Shown here one piece after another: positions 6,942-38,836 of a stretch of 39,120 bases of DNA. This stretch comes from Kiritimatiellia bacterium (GTDB lineage: Bacteria; Verrucomicrobiota; Kiritimatiellia; CAIQIC01; Lenti-01), in assembly GCA_017527155.1 (NCBI GenBank), contig JAFXQI010000015.1, positions 1-39,120 of the forward strand, given 5' to 3'. The position numbers and the translations under genes were made by a program. The first letter of the stretch is position 1. The number at the start of each line of letters is the position of its first letter. The notes under the pieces were generated by a model. The model saw only the letters and a program-made list of their open reading frames with translations. It did no database searches and was not told where the DNA came from.

Positions 6942-6942
6942 C

Positions 6943-7104
6943 GGACGCGCGGAAGCGCGTCCCTCCCCCTGGGGCGGGGCGGTCGCGTTCCGGTCGCAAG
7001 CCGACGGCGAGGGCGTGGGTGGGGTCGTCCGGGGAATGCGCGAAGCGCCCGGGAGGGTCGCGCTTCTGCGCGACCTGTCGTCGAGGACGCGCGGAAGCGC
7101 GTCC
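6943..7104. repeat. Hairpin repeat unit (1.5 copies) after the ABC operon
   Basis: Two copies of GGACGCGCGGAAGCGCGTCC, at 6943-6962 and 7085-7104, flank a third hairpin of the GGTCGCGCTTCTGCGCGACC type. The order and the CGCGAAGCGCCCGGGAGGG link are the same as in the 122-bp tandem array at 10839. Each hairpin has an 8-bp GC-rich stem and a GGAA-type loop. It lacks a following T-run, so it is not a standard intrinsic terminator. Confidence 0.8.
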
Positions 7105-7196
7105 CTCCCCCTGGGGCGGGGAATCAGGGAGAAGGGTAGGGGAGGGGCGCCATGCGACGCGACCGGCGGCCCAGCCGCTGCCCCGGGAGAACCGGC

Positions 7197-10822: not shown

Positions 10823-10838
10823 GGCGGTGCGGCGGTGA

Positions 10839-11480
10839 GGACGCGCGGAAGCGCGTCCCTCCCGGGGGGGCGTTCCGTTCGCCAACCGGCGGCGGGGTGG
10901 GTGCTTGAGGGAGACGCGAAGCGCCCGGGAGGGTCGCGCTTCCGCGCGACCGATTGTCCAGGACGCGCAGAAGCGCGTCCCTCCCCGGGGGACGGCCCAT
11001 TCGCCAGCCGACGGCGGGAGTGGGTGCTTGTGGGAGACGAGAAGCGCCCGGGAGGGTCGCGCTTCTGCGCGACCGGTTGTCCAGGACGCGCGGAAGCGCG
11101 TCCCTCCCCGGGGGGCGTTTCATTCACCAGCCGACGGCGGGGGGGGCTTGTGGGAGACGCGAAGCGCCCGGGAGGGTCGCGCTTCCGCGCGACCGTTCGT
11201 TGAGGACGCGCGGAAGCGCGTCCCTCCCCGGGGGGCGTCCCATTCACCATCCGACGGCGGGAGTGGGTGCTTGTGGGAGATGCGAAGCGCCCGGGAGGGT
11301 CGCGCTTCCGCGCGACCGGTTGTAGAGGACGCGCAGAAGCGCGTCCCTCCCCGGGGGCGTTCCATTCACCAGCCGACGGCGGGGGTGGGTGCTTGTGGGA
11401 GACGCGAAGCGCCCGGGAGGGTCGCGCTTCCGCGCGACCGGTTGTCCAGGACGCGCGGAAGCGCGTCCCTCCCCGGGGGG
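10839..11480 (+). repeat. 122-bp tandem array, five units plus a partial
   Basis: The word GGACGCGCGGAAGCGCGTCC or its AGAA-loop variant starts at 10839, 10961, 11084, 11204, 11327 and 11449, giving periods of 122, 123, 120, 123 and 122 bp. Each unit contains that hairpin, a variable ATTCACCAGCCGACGGCGG-like segment, GTGGGAGACGCGAAGCG, and a second hairpin GGTCGCGCTTCCGCGCGACC. Changes in the hairpins tend to fall in the loop. The frames through the array (repeating GRASARP and KRPGGSRFRAT) are artefacts. There are no unique spacers, so it is not a CRISPR. Confidence 0.92.
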
Positions 11481-11507
11481 GAGGTGGCTGCCGGGGTGCG
11501 ATGGGGC

Positions 11508-11536
11508 TTGCAACGGGGGGCGGGGGGATTTATGGT
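11508..11536 (+). promoter_or_regulatory. Promoter for tRNA-Leu
   Basis: A -35 TTGCAA (11508-11513) and -10 TATGGT (11531-11536) with a 17-bp G-rich spacer. The tRNA 5' end is 12 bp further on. A similar GGGCTTGCAA word followed by a G-run sits at 29446-29462, ahead of the microcompartment genes, but there the -10 is not clear. Confidence 0.55.
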
Positions 11537-13911: not shown

Positions 13912-14109
13912 TTTCCCGCAGGCCCCGATCGGAAGGGCGGTTGGAACGGCTCGCACGGAGTGCTCGCCCCACCAAGCCCGCGGGCAGGTCGCGTTGGAGC
14001 GGGGGCGGTTTTTCTGCCGCGCTCCGGAATTTTTCCAACCACACGGTCGCGCGGAAGCGCGACCCTCCCGGGGGGCTCTCCATGGGGAGGGACGCGCTTC
14101 TGCGCGTCC
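13912..14109. repeat. Hairpin repeats between convergent genes
   Basis: This region holds a half copy (13944-13974) of the GCTCGCCCCACCA-type repeat found as a full hairpin at 32808-32883. Further on are GGTCGCGCGGAAGCGCGACC (14045-14064) and GGACGCGCTTCTGCGCGTCC (14090-14109), the two hairpins of the 122-bp array. The last hairpin abuts the hydrolase stop codon. No gene is seen. The hairpins lie between convergent genes and could limit read-through, but neither has a T-run. Confidence 0.75.
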
Positions 14110-14937
14110 TTATTTCGCGATCTGCCCCAGGAAATCGAGGAGTTCGGCGTTGCCGGCGCCACCGTCGGAGAACCAGGAACGGGCGTCGTGGGGGCCGGCG
14201 AGGAGGACGAAGGCCTTCGGCGCCGCGGCGGCGGCATGGAGGGTCCGCCCGCTCTGGAAGGGGACCACGGCGTCGTCGGGGCTGTGTCCGACGAGCTTGG
14301 GGAGGCCGGGGAGGGCGGCGGTGCAGGCGGCGGTGTCGTAGCGGGAGGCGAGGAAGGGGCCGACGGGCCAGTCGGGGTAGAGGCGGGCGGCCATGTCGCG
14401 GACGGACGCGAAGGCGCCGTCGAGGACAAGTCCCGCCGCAGGGCGGTCCTGCGCCAGGCGGGCGGCGACGGCGCCGCCGAGGGAGTGGCCGTAGAGGATC
14501 ACGGGCAGGCCGGGGGCGCTTTCGGTGGCGGCATCGAAGGCGGCCTGGGCGTCGCGGCGGAGACCGTCTTCGGACGGGACTCCTTCGCTGCCGCCGTAGC
14601 CGCGGTAGTCCCAGAGGAGGACGTTCATGCGCTGGCGGGCGAAGAAGGGGACCCAGCGGGCGTCGGCGGAACGGTTGCCGGCGTTGCCGTGGCAGACGAG
14701 GACGGTCGCGCGCGCATGGGGGACGGGAATCCACCATCCCTCGAGCCCGGTGCCGTCGGAGGCGCGGAACCGGACGGTCTGGTAGCGGAGGTGGTGGTCG
14801 GCCGGGGTGTCGGCCAGCGCCGCGGTCGGATGGTAGAGGATGGCTTTCTCGCGGTGGCGGAGGACCAGGAGGGCAGCCCCCGCCAGGATGGCCAGCAGGA
14901 GCAGCAGCAGGAGCAGGAGGGTCAGGATTTTCTTCAC
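14110..14937 (-). CDS. Membrane-anchored alpha/beta hydrolase
   Basis: A 275-aa serine hydrolase with one N-terminal membrane anchor (KKILTLLLLLLLLLAILAGA). The fold motifs are complete: oxyanion segment CHGNAGNRS, nucleophile elbow GHSLGG, a probable acid Asp in GHSPDDAVVPF and His in AGPHDARSWF. The RGYGGSEG motif places it with the YfhR/ABHD13 (BEM46-like) group. The substrate of that group is poorly known. GTG 14937 begins VKKIL and gives the proper anchor; the frame continues upstream only as shadow of acnA. It lies 32 bp downstream of acnA and is likely co-transcribed with it. Confidence 0.88.
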   Translation of the reverse strand: MKKILTLLLLLLLLLAILAGAALLVLRHREKAILYHPTAALADTPADHHLRYQTVRFRASDGTGLEGWWIPVPHARATVLVCHGNAGNRSADARWVPFFARQRMNVLLWDYRGYGGSEGVPSEDGLRRDAQAAFDAATESAPGLPVILYGHSLGGAVAARLAQDRPAAGLVLDGAFASVRDMAARLYPDWPVGPFLASRYDTAACTAALPGLPKLVGHSPDDAVVPFQSGRTLHAAAAAPKAFVLLAGPHDARSWFSDGGAGNAELLDFLGQIAK

Positions 14938-20120: not shown

Positions 20121-20282
20121 GGCACGGGAGCTTGCTCCGGCCGCTCGCGTTTGTCCATCCAAACCGCCGGGGAAAGGGTAGGGGACGCCGGAGCAGCGCA
20201 GGATGGAAACAGCCGGATCCCGCAGGCCGGAGGTCCCCCCGGGAAATCAGCCGACGACGTCGGCCGGCTTGTCGAAACCACT

Positions 20283-20341
20283 CGCGATATCAAGGAAAAC
20301 TCCATGAAAATCACCTGTTTCAGCTTTGGTTGACCCCCATG
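20283..20341 (+). promoter_or_regulatory. Conserved GATATCAAGG leader, copy A
   Basis: CACTCGCGATATCAAGG followed by AAAA, with an ATG 56 bp from the start of CGCGATATC (ATG 20339, preceded by CCCCC and followed by codons for EKSP). A closer ATG at 20303 opens a nine-codon frame. The downstream frame runs into the 3' end of rpoN on the opposite strand, so no full gene follows. Related copies are at 22026, 29279 and 38676, with an inverted core at 22885. Confidence 0.6.
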
Positions 20342-20361
20342 GAAAAATCCCCTCCCCCGCC

Positions 20362-22025: not shown

Positions 22026-22082
22026 TGCGATAACAAGGAAATCCTTGCATTTTCTTCCGTTTTCTCCATCATCCACGCCATG
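22026..22082 (+). promoter_or_regulatory. Conserved GATATCAAGG leader, copy B, ahead of a full gene
   Basis: TGCGATAACAAGGAAATCCTTG starts at 22026, and ATG 22080 lies 54 bp on. This copy has two changes in the GATATC part. It keeps the CAAGGA-AA-TCCTTG inverted repeat, which could fold as a small hairpin. The T/C-rich remainder (TTTTCTTCCGTTTTCTCC) resembles copies D and E. It is the only copy with a long gene behind it. Confidence 0.6.
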
Positions 22083-23063
22083 AAAGAAGAACCCGTTTTT
22101 CCCCGCGGCTACCTCCATGCCCTTGCGGCCGACTGCTTCGGTCCCCATCCCCGCCCCATCGGCGGCGGCAGCTACGCCACCCTGGCGGATGCCTGCTTCG
22201 GTCTCGCCCTCTTCACCGGCTCGCTCGCCGTCCACCTCGCATGGTACGGTGGCAAGCGCATCCTCTCGCGCCTCCGCAACCGCGTCTCGCCGCCCGAGCC
22301 GCTGCCGCCCGCGGCGCCGCAGGAACCCGTCTCGTTGCGGGGTGTTCCAACGCCCGAAGACCTCGAAGAGGCCTGGGCGACCGACCCGCGCACGCTGTCC
22401 GGCCGGCTGCGCATCGGTTCCCGCCTGGCGGACCTGGAGCCGACGCTCGACAGCCGGTTCGTCTTCAAGAAATCCCGCAACGGCGCCCGCCGCATCTGTG
22501 CGCGCCAGCCGGGACTCAAGGGGTGGATGAAGAAGAACGTTCCGGAGATCAAATACTCCACCGCCATGCACTACAAGAAGCTGGCCACCCGCCTCCGGCA
22601 GCTCGTCGGCCTCGACGCGCGGATTCCGTTGGAGTGGCTGCTGCCCGACAACGGGGAAGAGCTGCCGCCGCTTTCCGGCGCCGACCGCCAGGCGGCGGCC
22701 CGGGCCCGATCGAAGCTCGTGCGGTTGCTGGAGGAGAATCCGAACGTGACGCGGCTGGTGCGGGCGGTGGAATCCAGGCTCGGGATCATGCGGATGGTGA
22801 CGACCCGGCGGATCCAGCCGCCGGAACCGGGGCGGGGACGGAGGAGGAAAACCGGGAAAAACCGCGAAAATCCCTTGATATCGCGAGTGTGCCGGGCGGG
22901 ATATTCGGTGGCGGCGGACGGGGAGCGGACGAAGGCGTTCTGGGATGCGATACGGCAGGTGCTGGGGGAGCGGAATCCGGATGAGGAGACGCGGAGGCTG
23001 CAATCGGACATCCGGGAGTGGCTGAACGCGCCGTTGCAGGCGCGGCGGAACCGGAGGCGGTAG
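22080..23063 (+). CDS. Orphan protein of unknown family, 327 aa
   Basis: I do not recognise this protein. The start ATG 22080 sits behind the conserved leader. Residues 1-35 (FPRGYLHALAADCFGPHPRP) precede a hydrophobic stretch (about 36-56, LADACFGLALFTGSLAVHLA), then a Pro-rich linker. The middle region contains IKYSTAMHYKKLATRLRQL (about 160-180) and a basic ARSKLVRLLEENPNVTRLVRAV segment, which look helical and could bind nucleic acid. The C-terminus (ERTKAFWDAIRQVL) ends in QARRNRRR. The DNA coding for ENPLISRVCRAG (22871-22887) is an inverted copy of the leader core. One membrane contact followed by a basic helical domain is my best description. A regulator or a repeat-associated protein are both open. 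Confidence 0.72.
   Translation: MKEEPVFPRGYLHALAADCFGPHPRPIGGGSYATLADACFGLALFTGSLAVHLAWYGGKRILSRLRNRVSPPEPLPPAAPQEPVSLRGVPTPEDLEEAWATDPRTLSGRLRIGSRLADLEPTLDSRFVFKKSRNGARRICARQPGLKGWMKKNVPEIKYSTAMHYKKLATRLRQLVGLDARIPLEWLLPDNGEELPPLSGADRQAAARARSKLVRLLEENPNVTRLVRAVESRLGIMRMVTTRRIQPPEPGRGRRRKTGKNRENPLISRVCRAGYSVAADGERTKAFWDAIRQVLGERNPDEETRRLQSDIREWLNAPLQARRNRRR
22871..22887 (-). repeat. Inverted copy of the leader core inside the orphan gene
   Basis: On the minus strand this reads CTCGCGATATCAAGGGA, sharing the exact 17-mer CACTCGCGATATCAAGG with copies A and E. There is no ATG 54-56 bp downstream on the minus strand. The T-rich DNA that follows still resembles the leader of copy B. Confidence 0.7.
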
Positions 23064-26354: not shown

Positions 26355-26538
26355 GCCCGGACCCTCCCGGAAGAGAAAATGGAAACAAATGGAACAAAAT
26401 TTTGAAAATCAAACAAATCGGGCAAACAAATTGATTGTTCCATCCCCCCGCCCGCATCCCATTTGCACCCCTCTACTCCCGTCTGGTCATCGATAAAAGA
26501 AAGCGAAGAAAAGCGGCCGGATAGCCCGAAGGCCTCTT
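26355..26538. other. AT-rich intergenic stretch upstream of xerC
   Basis: About 180 bp without a gene. From 26378 to 26445 it is rich in AAACAAAT words. This is far more AT-rich than the neighbourhood and may hold the promoter for the minus-strand recombinase gene, but no clear -35/-10 pair was found. Confidence 0.5.
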
Positions 26539-26797
26539 TGGAGTTGTCAGCCAAAGGACTTGTGTTTTCATCCGTGCAAAGCCGGGTAGGGCGGCGAGTC
26601 CCCTCGCCGCCGGAAGACTGGAACGTACATGAGAAGGTCATTGGAGGTGCGGATGCAATTCGGCCTGGACCTGGGGAAACATGCGTCCGCACATTTCGGG
26701 CGCCGTCCTTCGAAATGACGGATTCCGGCGGGCAGGGACTGCCCGCCCTACCCATCCCCGTGCATGGAAAATCGCACGGGGCTTGCCTGGCAACCCC
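26539..26797. mobile_element. MITE-like 260-bp element, copy 2 (inverted)
   Basis: Reverse-complement counterpart of 1081-1340 with nearly the same length (259 against 260 bp). One end begins TGGAGTTGTCAG and the other, read inward on the other strand, begins GGGGTTGCCAGG. Shared internal blocks are GGTAGGGCGGCGAGTCCCC, AATGTGCGGACGCATGTTTC (read on the minus strand) and CAGGGACTGCCCGCCCTACC. The blocks agree in order, with substitutions between them, so both copies derive from one element. Confidence 0.72.
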
Positions 26798-26832
26798 TTT
26801 GTCCATCCCATTTGTCGTTTTTGTTTCCAAAT

Positions 26833-29200: not shown

Positions 29201-29278
29201 GGACGCGCACTCTACCACCCCCCCCGCAAAATGCAACCCGCCCGTGGGGCACGCCGCGCCGGGGTGGACGCACGCAAA

Positions 29279-29337
29279 CGCGATATCAAGGAAAATCCTT
29301 GGAAAACACCCGGTTTCCGATCATTCCAGCCCCCATG
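29279..29337 (+). promoter_or_regulatory. Conserved GATATCAAGG leader, copy D
   Basis: CGCGATATCAAGGAAAA at 29279-29295 continues into TCCTTGG, so CAAGGA-AAA-TCCTTG can pair. ATG 29335 lies 56 bp from the start, preceded by CCCCC and followed by codons for NAKP. The frame behind it runs into the microcompartment gene in the wrong phase and is probably not a gene. Confidence 0.6.
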
Positions 29338-29512
29338 AACGCCAAGCCGCTCCGTCCTCCGGCGGACCCCATGGCCGCCCTGCCCGGGCCATGGGCGCCC
29401 CGCCGTCCGCGCCTTGGTGAAGCGTTTTCGCAAGGGAGGGGCGCGGGGCTTGCAATGGGGGGGCGGAGTGTGGGAAAGTGCGGGTCTGAAGCCAGAACGC
29501 GGAGTAGCGAAC
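29338..29512 (+). other. Intergenic DNA ahead of the microcompartment genes
   Basis: No gene is seen. A GGGCTTGCAATGGGGG word (29446-29461) matches the -35 region of the tRNA-Leu promoter and could be the -35 for this operon, but a convincing -10 at the expected distance (29473-29478) is missing. GGAG at 29501 is the ribosome site for the next gene. Confidence 0.45.
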
Positions 29513-32807: not shown

Positions 32808-32883
32808 GTGGTGGGGCGAGCACTCCGTGCGAGCCGTTCAAACGCTTGGAACGGCTCGCTCGGAGAGCTCGCCCCACCACCAC
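32808..32883. repeat. 76-bp perfect-like hairpin
   Basis: Arms 32808-32839 and 32849-32883 with a 9-bp loop (AAACGCTTG). The right arm has a few changes (CTCGCTCGGAGAGCTCG against CGAGCACTCCGTGCGAG). A half copy lies at 13944-13974. Confidence 0.85.
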
Positions 32884-32928
32884 GGCTTCCCACAAGCAAA
32901 ACCACACGGTTTGCGCCTGGCAACTCCG

Positions 32929-33082
32929 TTTTCCAATGGTTGGAAAAAAGTTTTCCAATGGTTGGAAAAATGGGCCCGGTTTTTCCAATGATTGGAAAAA
33001 AAGTTTCCAATGGTTGGAAAATTCTGCCTTGTTTTTCCAATGATTGGAAAAAAATTCCGGCCGTTTTCCAATGATTGGAAAA
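32929..33082. repeat. Cluster of six CCAATGATTGG palindromes
   Basis: Copies at 32929-32947, 32951-32969, 32981-32999, 33003-33021, 33033-33051 and 33064-33082. Three have the centre CCAATGGTTGG and three CCAATGATTGG. Flanks are T-runs and A-runs. Spacers are 2 to 12 bp. It lies between the convergent genes ending at 32748 and 33109. Confidence 0.9.
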
Positions 33083-33108
33083 AATTTTCCGCGTGGTTTC
33101 CGGCGGGT

Positions 33109-34833
33109 TCAGGCGGGGGCGGCGGGGAAGGAGACGGCGATGCGGGTGCCGGTGGCGGGGGAGGTCTCGAAGGAAAGGGTGCCGCCGAGGATGTCGGCGC
33201 GGTGGCGCATGATGCGAAGGCCGTTGCCGCCGACGGCGTCCGGGGCGTCGGCCGCCGCCATGCCGCGGCCGTCGTCTTCGATGGCCAGGAGGCCGCCTTC
33301 GGGGGGGAAGTCGAGGGTGAGGACGACACGGGTCCCGCCGGAATGCTTGGCGGCGTTGGTGACGGCTTCCTGCGCGATGAGGTAGAGATGCTCGGCGGCG
33401 GCGGCGTCGCGGGGACGGCCTTCGCGCTCGTAGTAGAAATCGACGTCGAGGGGATAGAGGGCCGAGGCTTCGGAGGCCAGGGCGCGGAGGGCGTCGGGCA
33501 GGCCGTCCTCGGTCAGCGCCACCGGAGCCAGTCCGCGGGCGATGCGGCGGACCTGCGTGACGGCGTCCTTGAGGGTGGAGGCGATCTGCGCGGCGTCGGG
33601 ATCGCCGGGCGGGGCGTGGCGGCGGCTCCAGGCGGTGAAGAGGTAGAGGGCGCCGGTGAGTTTCTGTCCGAGCGAGTCGTGGAGGTCGCGGCCGACCCGG
33701 GTCCGCTCTTCGCGGCCGATGCGCAGGACGCTCTCTTCGAGCTGGCAGCGCTCTTCCATGAGGTCGCCGAGACGGCGGTTGGCGTCCGCCAGCTGGGCGG
33801 TCCGGCGGCGGACGAGGCGCTCGACCTGCGCGGTCTGCCGGGAGGCCCCCCACAGCCAGAGGAAAAGTCCGAGGGAGAGGAGGACCCCGAGCGCGGCGGC
33901 CAGGAGGGGCGTGCGGGGAAGTTTCGGGAGCCAGAAGGACGGCGCGGACTCGGCGCAGAAGAGCCACTCCTGCTGGCCGATGGCGACGGGGAAGGCCGTG
34001 AGCCATCGCGTTCCGGCGGGGGCGGAGAGGCCGGCGGCGGCGCGGCGGGCCTCCGCGGCGGGGGAGGGGGGGAGGAGGGCGATGGCGGTCCGGCGGAGGT
34101 CGCCGGCCACGGGCGCAAGCAGGCGCGCGGGGGAGAAGAGGGCGACGGCGAAGCCGGAGGGAACGGGTGCGGGCGCCGCGGGATCGGCGAGATAGAGGGT
34201 GGGGGCGAAGAGAAGGAACGCGCCGGGGTCGGGCGTCGGCGCGACGGTGAAGATGGCATGGCGGAACATCTCGGAAAGCGCGCCGTGGGCGGCGGGATCG
34301 GAGCCGAAGTCGTAGCCGGTGGGGACGCCGAGGCCGCTTGGCGGGGTCTGGTAGGTGAGGAGGAAGTAGGCGGGACGGGACGGGGCGGGAACGTAGCCGC
34401 CGCGGCCGTCGTTTTCGACGATGGGCGAGCCCTGGCGCTCGGCGGCGGCACGGTCGGCCTCGGGGAGGATCTGCGCGAAGCCGTAGGCGCCGAGGACGCG
34501 CTGCTGGTGGAGCATGCCTTTCTGCGCGATTTCCGCGAACGCTTCCGGCGTGACCCGGTCGGAAAGGCCGTGGAGGCGGCGGATGGAGTCGAATACGTCG
34601 AGGTAGAGCTGGAGCTCGCGGGCCGCGCGGGCACGGGCGCCGTCGGCTTCGGCAAGGAAATCGCGGTAGGCGGCGCGGCGGGCGCGGTGGGCCAGGTCGA
34701 GCGCCAGCAGGAGAGTCAGCAGCAGGCCGGCGGCCAGCAGGATCACCGCGGCGGCGGCCTGGCGGCGGGCGCGGCGCGGGGCCGGAGCGGCCGGAACGGA
34801 AGGGGAAGGGGTAGGGGCGGCGGGGGCGGTCAT
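33109..34833 (-). CDS. CHASE-like sensor histidine kinase
   Basis: Membrane histidine kinase of 574 aa. TM1 (about residues 27-47) is followed by a ~270-residue extracytoplasmic sensor that resembles a CHASE domain (YGFAQILPEADR ... YVPAPSRPAYFLLTYQ), then TM2 (LLAAALGVLLSLGLFLWLWG). A short coiled coil (RRRTAQLADANRRLGDLMEER) leads to a HisKA_3 dimerisation domain with phospho-acceptor H385 (GRDLHDSLGQ). The HATPase domain follows (EAVTNAAKHSG, IEDDGRGM, GGNGLRIMRHRA). That is the NarX/DesK-type class, whose partners are usually NarL-type response regulators, and none is in the window. It starts 11 bp after the third ABC ATPase stop and is probably in that operon. ATG 34854 is an alternative. 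Confidence 0.9.
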   Translation of the reverse strand: MTAPAAPTPSPSVPAAPAPRRARRQAAAAVILLAAGLLLTLLLALDLAHRARRAAYRDFLAEADGARARAARELQLYLDVFDSIRRLHGLSDRVTPEAFAEIAQKGMLHQQRVLGAYGFAQILPEADRAAAERQGSPIVENDGRGGYVPAPSRPAYFLLTYQTPPSGLGVPTGYDFGSDPAAHGALSEMFRHAIFTVAPTPDPGAFLLFAPTLYLADPAAPAPVPSGFAVALFSPARLLAPVAGDLRRTAIALLPPSPAAEARRAAAGLSAPAGTRWLTAFPVAIGQQEWLFCAESAPSFWLPKLPRTPLLAAALGVLLSLGLFLWLWGASRQTAQVERLVRRRTAQLADANRRLGDLMEERCQLEESVLRIGREERTRVGRDLHDSLGQKLTGALYLFTAWSRRHAPPGDPDAAQIASTLKDAVTQVRRIARGLAPVALTEDGLPDALRALASEASALYPLDVDFYYEREGRPRDAAAAEHLYLIAQEAVTNAAKHSGGTRVVLTLDFPPEGGLLAIEDDGRGMAAADAPDAVGGNGLRIMRHRADILGGTLSFETSPATGTRIAVSFPAAPA

Positions 34834-38502: not shown

Positions 38503-38836
38503 GGCCGTCTCCTTCGTCCTCGTCCTTCCATGCCCCCAGCATAGCCAAACTCCCTCCCCGCCGCAAGCCGGATGCGGCCCCCCCCGTCCTCCTCCGCACC
38601 ATCCCGCTGCCCTCTCCCCGCTCCCCCCTGTTCCCCCCATCCTCACACCAATCCCATCCCCTTTTCCGGACACTCGCGATATCAAGGAAAACACCGGATT
38701 TTCCCATTGAATCTCCCCATCATTCCCTCCATGAAAAAATCACCCATCCGCTCCTCCGGGTCCCTGCCTTCCCCCAGCCGAGGCTGTTCCCTCCACCCTT
38801 ATCCCGCTTTTTGCGGGGAAGCAGATGGCGGGAGAT
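38503..38836. other. Intergenic DNA with leader copy E
   Basis: No gene is supported. The section from 38590 to 38670 is a C-rich low-complexity run (CCCCATCC words). Then comes leader copy E (38676). A short frame 38731-38901 follows it and runs into the transposase on the other strand. Confidence 0.6.
38676..38733 (+). promoter_or_regulatory. Conserved GATATCAAGG leader, copy E
   Basis: The 17-mer CACTCGCGATATCAAGG continues into AAAACACCGG. ATG 38731 is 55 bp from the start of CGCGATATC, with CTCC before it and codons for KKSP after it. The TTTTCCCATTG, ATCTCCCCATCATTCC region resembles copies B and D. Confidence 0.6.

Follow-up and report, generated by a model that had tools for sequence, protein, structure and literature searches.

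A multicopy gene family of Kiritimatiellia with its leader box repeated in inverted orientation within the gene: candidate autoregulated, dispersed units

The window, a contiguous stretch of 39,120 nucleotides from the draft genome of a Kiritimatiellia bacterium (G000; 3.2 Mb in 114 contigs), contains a gene for a 327-amino-acid protein that is preceded by a short box and two promoter-like hexamers and that carries an inverted copy of the box within its coding sequence; three further leaders of the same type stand in the window as gene-less solos (Table 1). Scanning the window for the 17-mer CACTCGCGATATCAAGG located exact copies at 20279 and 38671 on the plus strand and at 22873-22889 on the minus strand, as well as a copy with two mismatches at 29275 (+), against a shuffle expectation of 0.12 matches at up to three mismatches. 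The leader core at 22027 (+) reads GCGATAACAAGG and differs from CACTCGCGATATCAAGG by one base; therefore, the exact 17-mer is absent from the leader of the gene at 22080. The initial annotation had placed an inverted exact 17-mer inside the open reading frame at 22871-22887, and the site is indeed there, on the minus strand, though 2 bp further to the right. The two cores face each other as it had described, with an inner distance of 835 bp and an outer distance of about 860 bp.

Table 1. Leader, gene and inner box at 22080 and the gene-less leaders of the window
Feature	Position	Strand	Remark
Gene-less solo leader (box to CCATGGA)	20279..20343	+	
Leader box GCGATAACAAGGAAAT	22027..22042	+	family-A type, one base changed
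-35-like hexamer TTGCAT	22045..22050	+	position conserved in family-A leaders
-10-like hexamer CATCAT	22067..22072	+	position conserved in family-A leaders
Family-A gene, 327 aa	22080..23063	+	
Inner inverted box copy, codons 265-270	22873..22889	-	DNA-level conservation in family-A copies covering it
Gene-less solo leader (box to CCATGAAC)	29275..29340	+	
Gene-less solo leader (box to CCATGAAA)	38671..38736	+	

Leaders of the family to which this gene belongs (family A) follow the order box, TTGCAT, about 17 nt, CATCAT, about 7 nt and ATG; at 22080, CATCAT lies 16 nt after the -35-like hexamer and 7 nt before the ATG. The spacing points to a sigma70-like promoter with an mRNA that would begin at or near the ATG, and the gene at 22080 apparently has a leaderless start. 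Family B leaders contain hexamers nearer to TTGACA and TACT behind other boxes, and distant homologues share the layout with quite different boxes, while genes of genome G003 have a longer leader with a Shine-Dalgarno-like stretch instead. Leaders in G175 and G207 (L315, L312, L317, L313) hold two direct box copies about 80-155 bp apart, and the same genes additionally contain an inverted inner copy. GC skew in family-A units, followed from 200 bp ahead of the gene as far as the stop codon, is strongly towards C upstream and towards G in the last third of the gene.

Genome searches found at least 39 family matches in G000, so that the label of orphan gene given initially has to be dropped, and at least 39 in the congener G001 (RUG11196); because both genomes are draft assemblies with copies frequently at contig ends, these numbers are lower bounds. 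Family-A copies show 68-90% protein identity to the query, and families B1 and B2 are about 33-38% identical to it. A search with a profile of 35 members recovered relatives in 53 of 288 sampled genomes of the class, several of which are multicopy, and dN/dS values of 0.08-0.38 in eleven pairs indicate purifying selection on the proteins. These genes make up a previously undescribed bacterial family that reaches dozens of members in a genome. G002 (L034) and G043 (L035) each have a single weak homologue that matches the core stretch only, with the hydrophobic helix region outside the alignment, and that may represent an older form of the domain. The motif GCGATATCAAGGNAA occurs 76 times genome-wide in G000 (reversed control, 0) and 20 times in G001, to which two genomes it is confined among 56 relatives searched.

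The 327-aa protein comprises a hydrophobic helix at about residues 31-69, an HTH-like helical core at about 81-235 predicted with high confidence, a disordered linker at 240-278 and C-terminal helices; the inner box is encoded within the linker. One strongly hydrophobic stretch per subfamily was found in every subfamily of the genus examined and in G003. The protein gave no informative match in Pfam, NCBIfam, PHROGs, PDB sequences or collections of phages, plasmids and viral contigs, and a Foldseek search against PDB and BFVD returned nothing below E 0.1. Sequence and fold searches matched no known DNA-binding family or fold. Likewise, no transposase or recombinase domain emerged by Pfam, NCBIfam, PHROG, PDB or fold match, no family match pointed to a RAYT-type (Y1) transposase, and a ParB-type sequence or fold appeared neither among Pfam matches nor among PDB fold matches.

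The inner box is present in all family-A copies that cover the stretch, with at most one change in its 12-base core. Three of its codons, L266 (TTG in 32/32), I267 (ATA in 32/32) and R269 (CGA in 26/29), are the top three codon-usage outliers among 180 conserved columns, as ranked by the departure of conserved codons from the family's own codon usage, which argues that the DNA is conserved here and not the peptide alone. Most B1 genes carry their own, different box inverted at the equivalent place. In distant genomes, the inverted own box is TTCCGCCACATAGTCT (G175, G207), ATTTCATACNNACCGTAATCTCAT (G196, G253) or TTTTTTCCGCACCGTA (G258), and in G233 and G124 it lies directly behind the stop codon. 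At a threshold of 13/14 positions, an inverted match to the own leader was detected in 48% of 98 genes, which include related copies within subfamilies and hence are not 98 independent events; controls gave 0% for leaders swapped between groups, 2% for direct and 1% for reversed matches. Among 30 distant genes, the values were 57% inverted, 0% direct and 3% reversed. No inner box was found in B2, where both strands and the flanks were searched, or in the G003 genes. Co-occurrence of leader and inner motif, which the initial annotation had wanted checked in homologues, is seen in family A and most B1 genes but breaks down in B2, which has the leader only. The B2 genes, and distant homologues with unrelated boxes in the same layout, tell in part against the original proposal.

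Among the G000 loci examined, about 60 type-A leaders are gene-less and intergenic. We considered whether such solos are starts of real genes and rejected this, as the frames behind the ATG are short or arbitrary. Solos retain the box and CCATGAA (near +55) as well as A/T tracts near +24, +35 and +44; they do not have a conserved -35 hexamer, and no inverted repeat spans the length of their consensus. According to a home-made gene caller and our own pattern rules, on which the other script-based counts rest as well, solos in tandem-gene gaps are oriented with the genes in 21 cases against 4 (the 21 being what remains of 23 once two misclassified sites are set aside, the leader of a gene in L067 and a site within coding sequence in L090), with another 18 in divergent and 9 in convergent gaps. 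Five aligned pairs, one of them the L090 coding site, were scored as orthologous through the site, and CCATGAA shows zero substitutions in these five, a sample too small for a rate test. Gene order relative to G001 breaks at the solo at 20279; the solo at 29275 is of type A, and in the congener each of its two flanks adjoins a B-type solo. Boxes resembling those of B1 number 35 in G000 and 31 in G001. G175 and G207 have few boxes outside gene copies, and solos may therefore be special to this genus.

Homology between family-A paralogues spans leader to stop codon and seldom extends further. Between L051 and L061, identity is 95.2% across 1030 bp, beginning at -59 and ending at the stop codon, with a dS of 0.13 and unrelated flanks, a divergence resembling that between G000 and G001; sharp ends and unrelated flanks around near-identical copies also characterize L009/L064 and L331/L332, and similar unit ends were found in G124, G196 and G253. 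In the orthologous pairs L031/L253, L057/L049, L060/L140 and L084/L242, the upstream flank is retained and homology ends at the stop codon, as it does in L039/L121, for which the upstream contig is short; in L001/L043, L069/L197 and L071/L233, homology ends at the leader. Homologous recombination between copies is accepted as the explanation for the breakpoint in L068, which resembles a recombinant of two B1 copies. As the sole cause of the breakpoints we rejected it, given full identity to the stop in L039/L121, L057/L049, L060/L140, L031/L253 and L084/L242. Our alignments support dispersal of the leader-to-stop stretch as a discrete unit and suggest that this unit is, or was, mobile. Comparison with G001 showed broken gene order at 15/15 junctions with an element and at 5/25 without one (Fisher P 8e-7), or at 2/7 when element-free gaps of at least 60 bp are taken (P 8e-4 against 15/15), an association rather than evidence of cause, since three of the four stretches compared were picked for holding several elements, block ends were entered by hand and intact solos are present outside these stretches.

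Two readings had been offered at the outset, a motif-binding autoregulator or a pair of boxes marking the ends of a mobile unit. The former fits best, because a box lies at the promoter, the inner copy is conserved as DNA, and box and protein subfamily change together while many genes keep their own box inverted; the binding itself is putative. The high copy number, the purifying selection, the HTH-like core predicted with high confidence and the mostly co-oriented solos between tandem genes also speak for it. The latter fails in its literal form, since homology between copies does not end at the inner box but continues as far as the stop codon, which excludes the boxes as cassette ends or terminal inverted repeats, while its looser form, dispersal of a leader-to-stop unit, gains support. 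We propose, with about an even chance of being right, that the family consists of autoregulated DNA-binding proteins that act via paired inverted sites and are dispersed as discrete units. Judged from sequence, a unit would comprise a subfamily-specific box, a sigma70-like promoter, an apparently leaderless start and an ORF whose putative DNA-binding product has a membrane-type helix; the same box would recur in most subfamilies, inverted and either within the 3' part of the ORF or closely following it. Leader and inverted box provide a promoter site and a second own site within looping distance, except in B2. The protein would most likely bind its own box and bridge the promoter site and the inner site, and by this presumed looping it would control its own transcription; the same proteins might also act at the gene-less solos between other genes. 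Promoter activity, anchoring in the membrane and a copying route for the unit are likewise what we infer.

Against autoregulation stand the lack of a match to any DNA-binding family or fold, the absence of an inner box from B2 and G003 genes, and the nine or so solos in convergent gaps, which have no gene to drive. Autoregulation alone also leaves the dozens of copies and their unrelated flanks unexplained. A rival account is a mobile element of a new kind, in which the protein, alone or helped by an enzyme of the host, would copy the segment bounded by box and stop codon, the box would serve as recognition site and solos would be short non-autonomous derivatives. The L051/L061 pair, the same ends in other genomes, the broken junctions and the difference in box number between the two species are all consistent with such an element, which we nevertheless consider somewhat unlikely: a catalytic domain was not recognised, the congener G001 yielded no clean empty site, and what solos have in common with the unit is confined to its left end. 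In addition, gene conversion between old copies could produce high identity without flank homology.

The predicted HTH-like core, the many dispersed sites and the hydrophobic helix, which G003 and all subfamilies of the genus possess, would also suit a Noc-like tethering of the chromosome to the membrane at many sites, with the boxes as anchors and regulation secondary. This is decidedly unlikely in our view, as anchoring has no need for dozens of paralogues with different boxes, the boxes stand in promoter context at a fixed distance to the ATG, and G175 and G207 have few sites outside gene copies. The shared box and A/T tracts near +24 and +35 of inner sites and solos might instead hint that the inner box is an antisense promoter for a regulatory RNA against the gene, but family-A inner sites do not retain the -35, -10 and ATG positions kept by leaders or solos, which renders this highly improbable. 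A more far-reaching version of the dispersed units, which we hold only tentatively and regard as rather doubtful, is that they are class-wide, self-dispersing promoter-regulator units, each type with its own paired inverted box, which copy themselves and give rise to promoter-only derivatives via a protein unrelated to known transposases, and which reshuffle host operons.

Each of several known systems shares part of this arrangement. REPIN-RAYT systems pair palindromic REPINs with RAYT, a gene that encodes a transposase-like protein and is present in single copy (PMC3116915). Both there and here, a gene whose product acts on DNA is accompanied by numerous short intergenic sequences related to its own flank; here, however, the gene is multicopy, its product has no relative among the families searched, and the short elements resemble promoters rather than palindromes. 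Noc, a relative of ParB, binds DNA at specific scattered chromosomal sites and reaches the membrane (PMC4331003). Our family likewise combines a putative DNA-binding protein carrying a membrane-type helix with scattered chromosomal sites, but without a match to Noc, with multicopy genes and with sites at promoters. Putative mobile promoters are similar short promoter-containing sequences before unrelated genes. The short promoter-like sequences described here also occur in front of unrelated genes; unlike mobile promoters, the promoter also serves a protein gene, within which lies a second, inverted box, and the box type changes with the protein. LacI-type repressors act through one operator at the promoter and another inside a gene, and a DNA loop can form. 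Facing or spaced sites that would allow a loop are common to both, whereas here the second site lies inside the regulator's own gene and both sites have changed together through complete sequence change.

The recurrence of the own-box pair with completely different boxes amounts to a natural experiment on how proteins recognise specific DNA. Units that move would be mobile elements of a new kind, and units that only regulate would constitute an autoregulated network of unusual size. In both cases, they coincide with gene-order breaks and thus bear on why these genomes are so rearranged.

Other repeats were noted in the window. Arrays of TTTTCCAATNATTGGAAAA lie in opposite orientations at 975-1084 and 32919-33115, the latter at a gene-order break relative to the congener from which box elements are absent; comparable arrays are located behind the stop codons in L001/L043 and L062. 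Repeats that are rich in GC, measure about 120 bp and contain GGACGCGCGGAAGCGCGTCCCTCCC occupy 6942-7147, 10838-11512 and 14043-14110, partly as a near-tandem array, and are also found behind some family-A copies. An inverted pair of 260 bp (1077-1342 and 26535-26800; 82-94% alike) matches more than 10 congener contigs, and the 35-nt repeat GTTTGAACGGCTCGCACGGAGTGCTCGCCCCACCA is present in several copies at 13940-13974 and 32808-32880, two of which form an inverted pair 3 nt apart.
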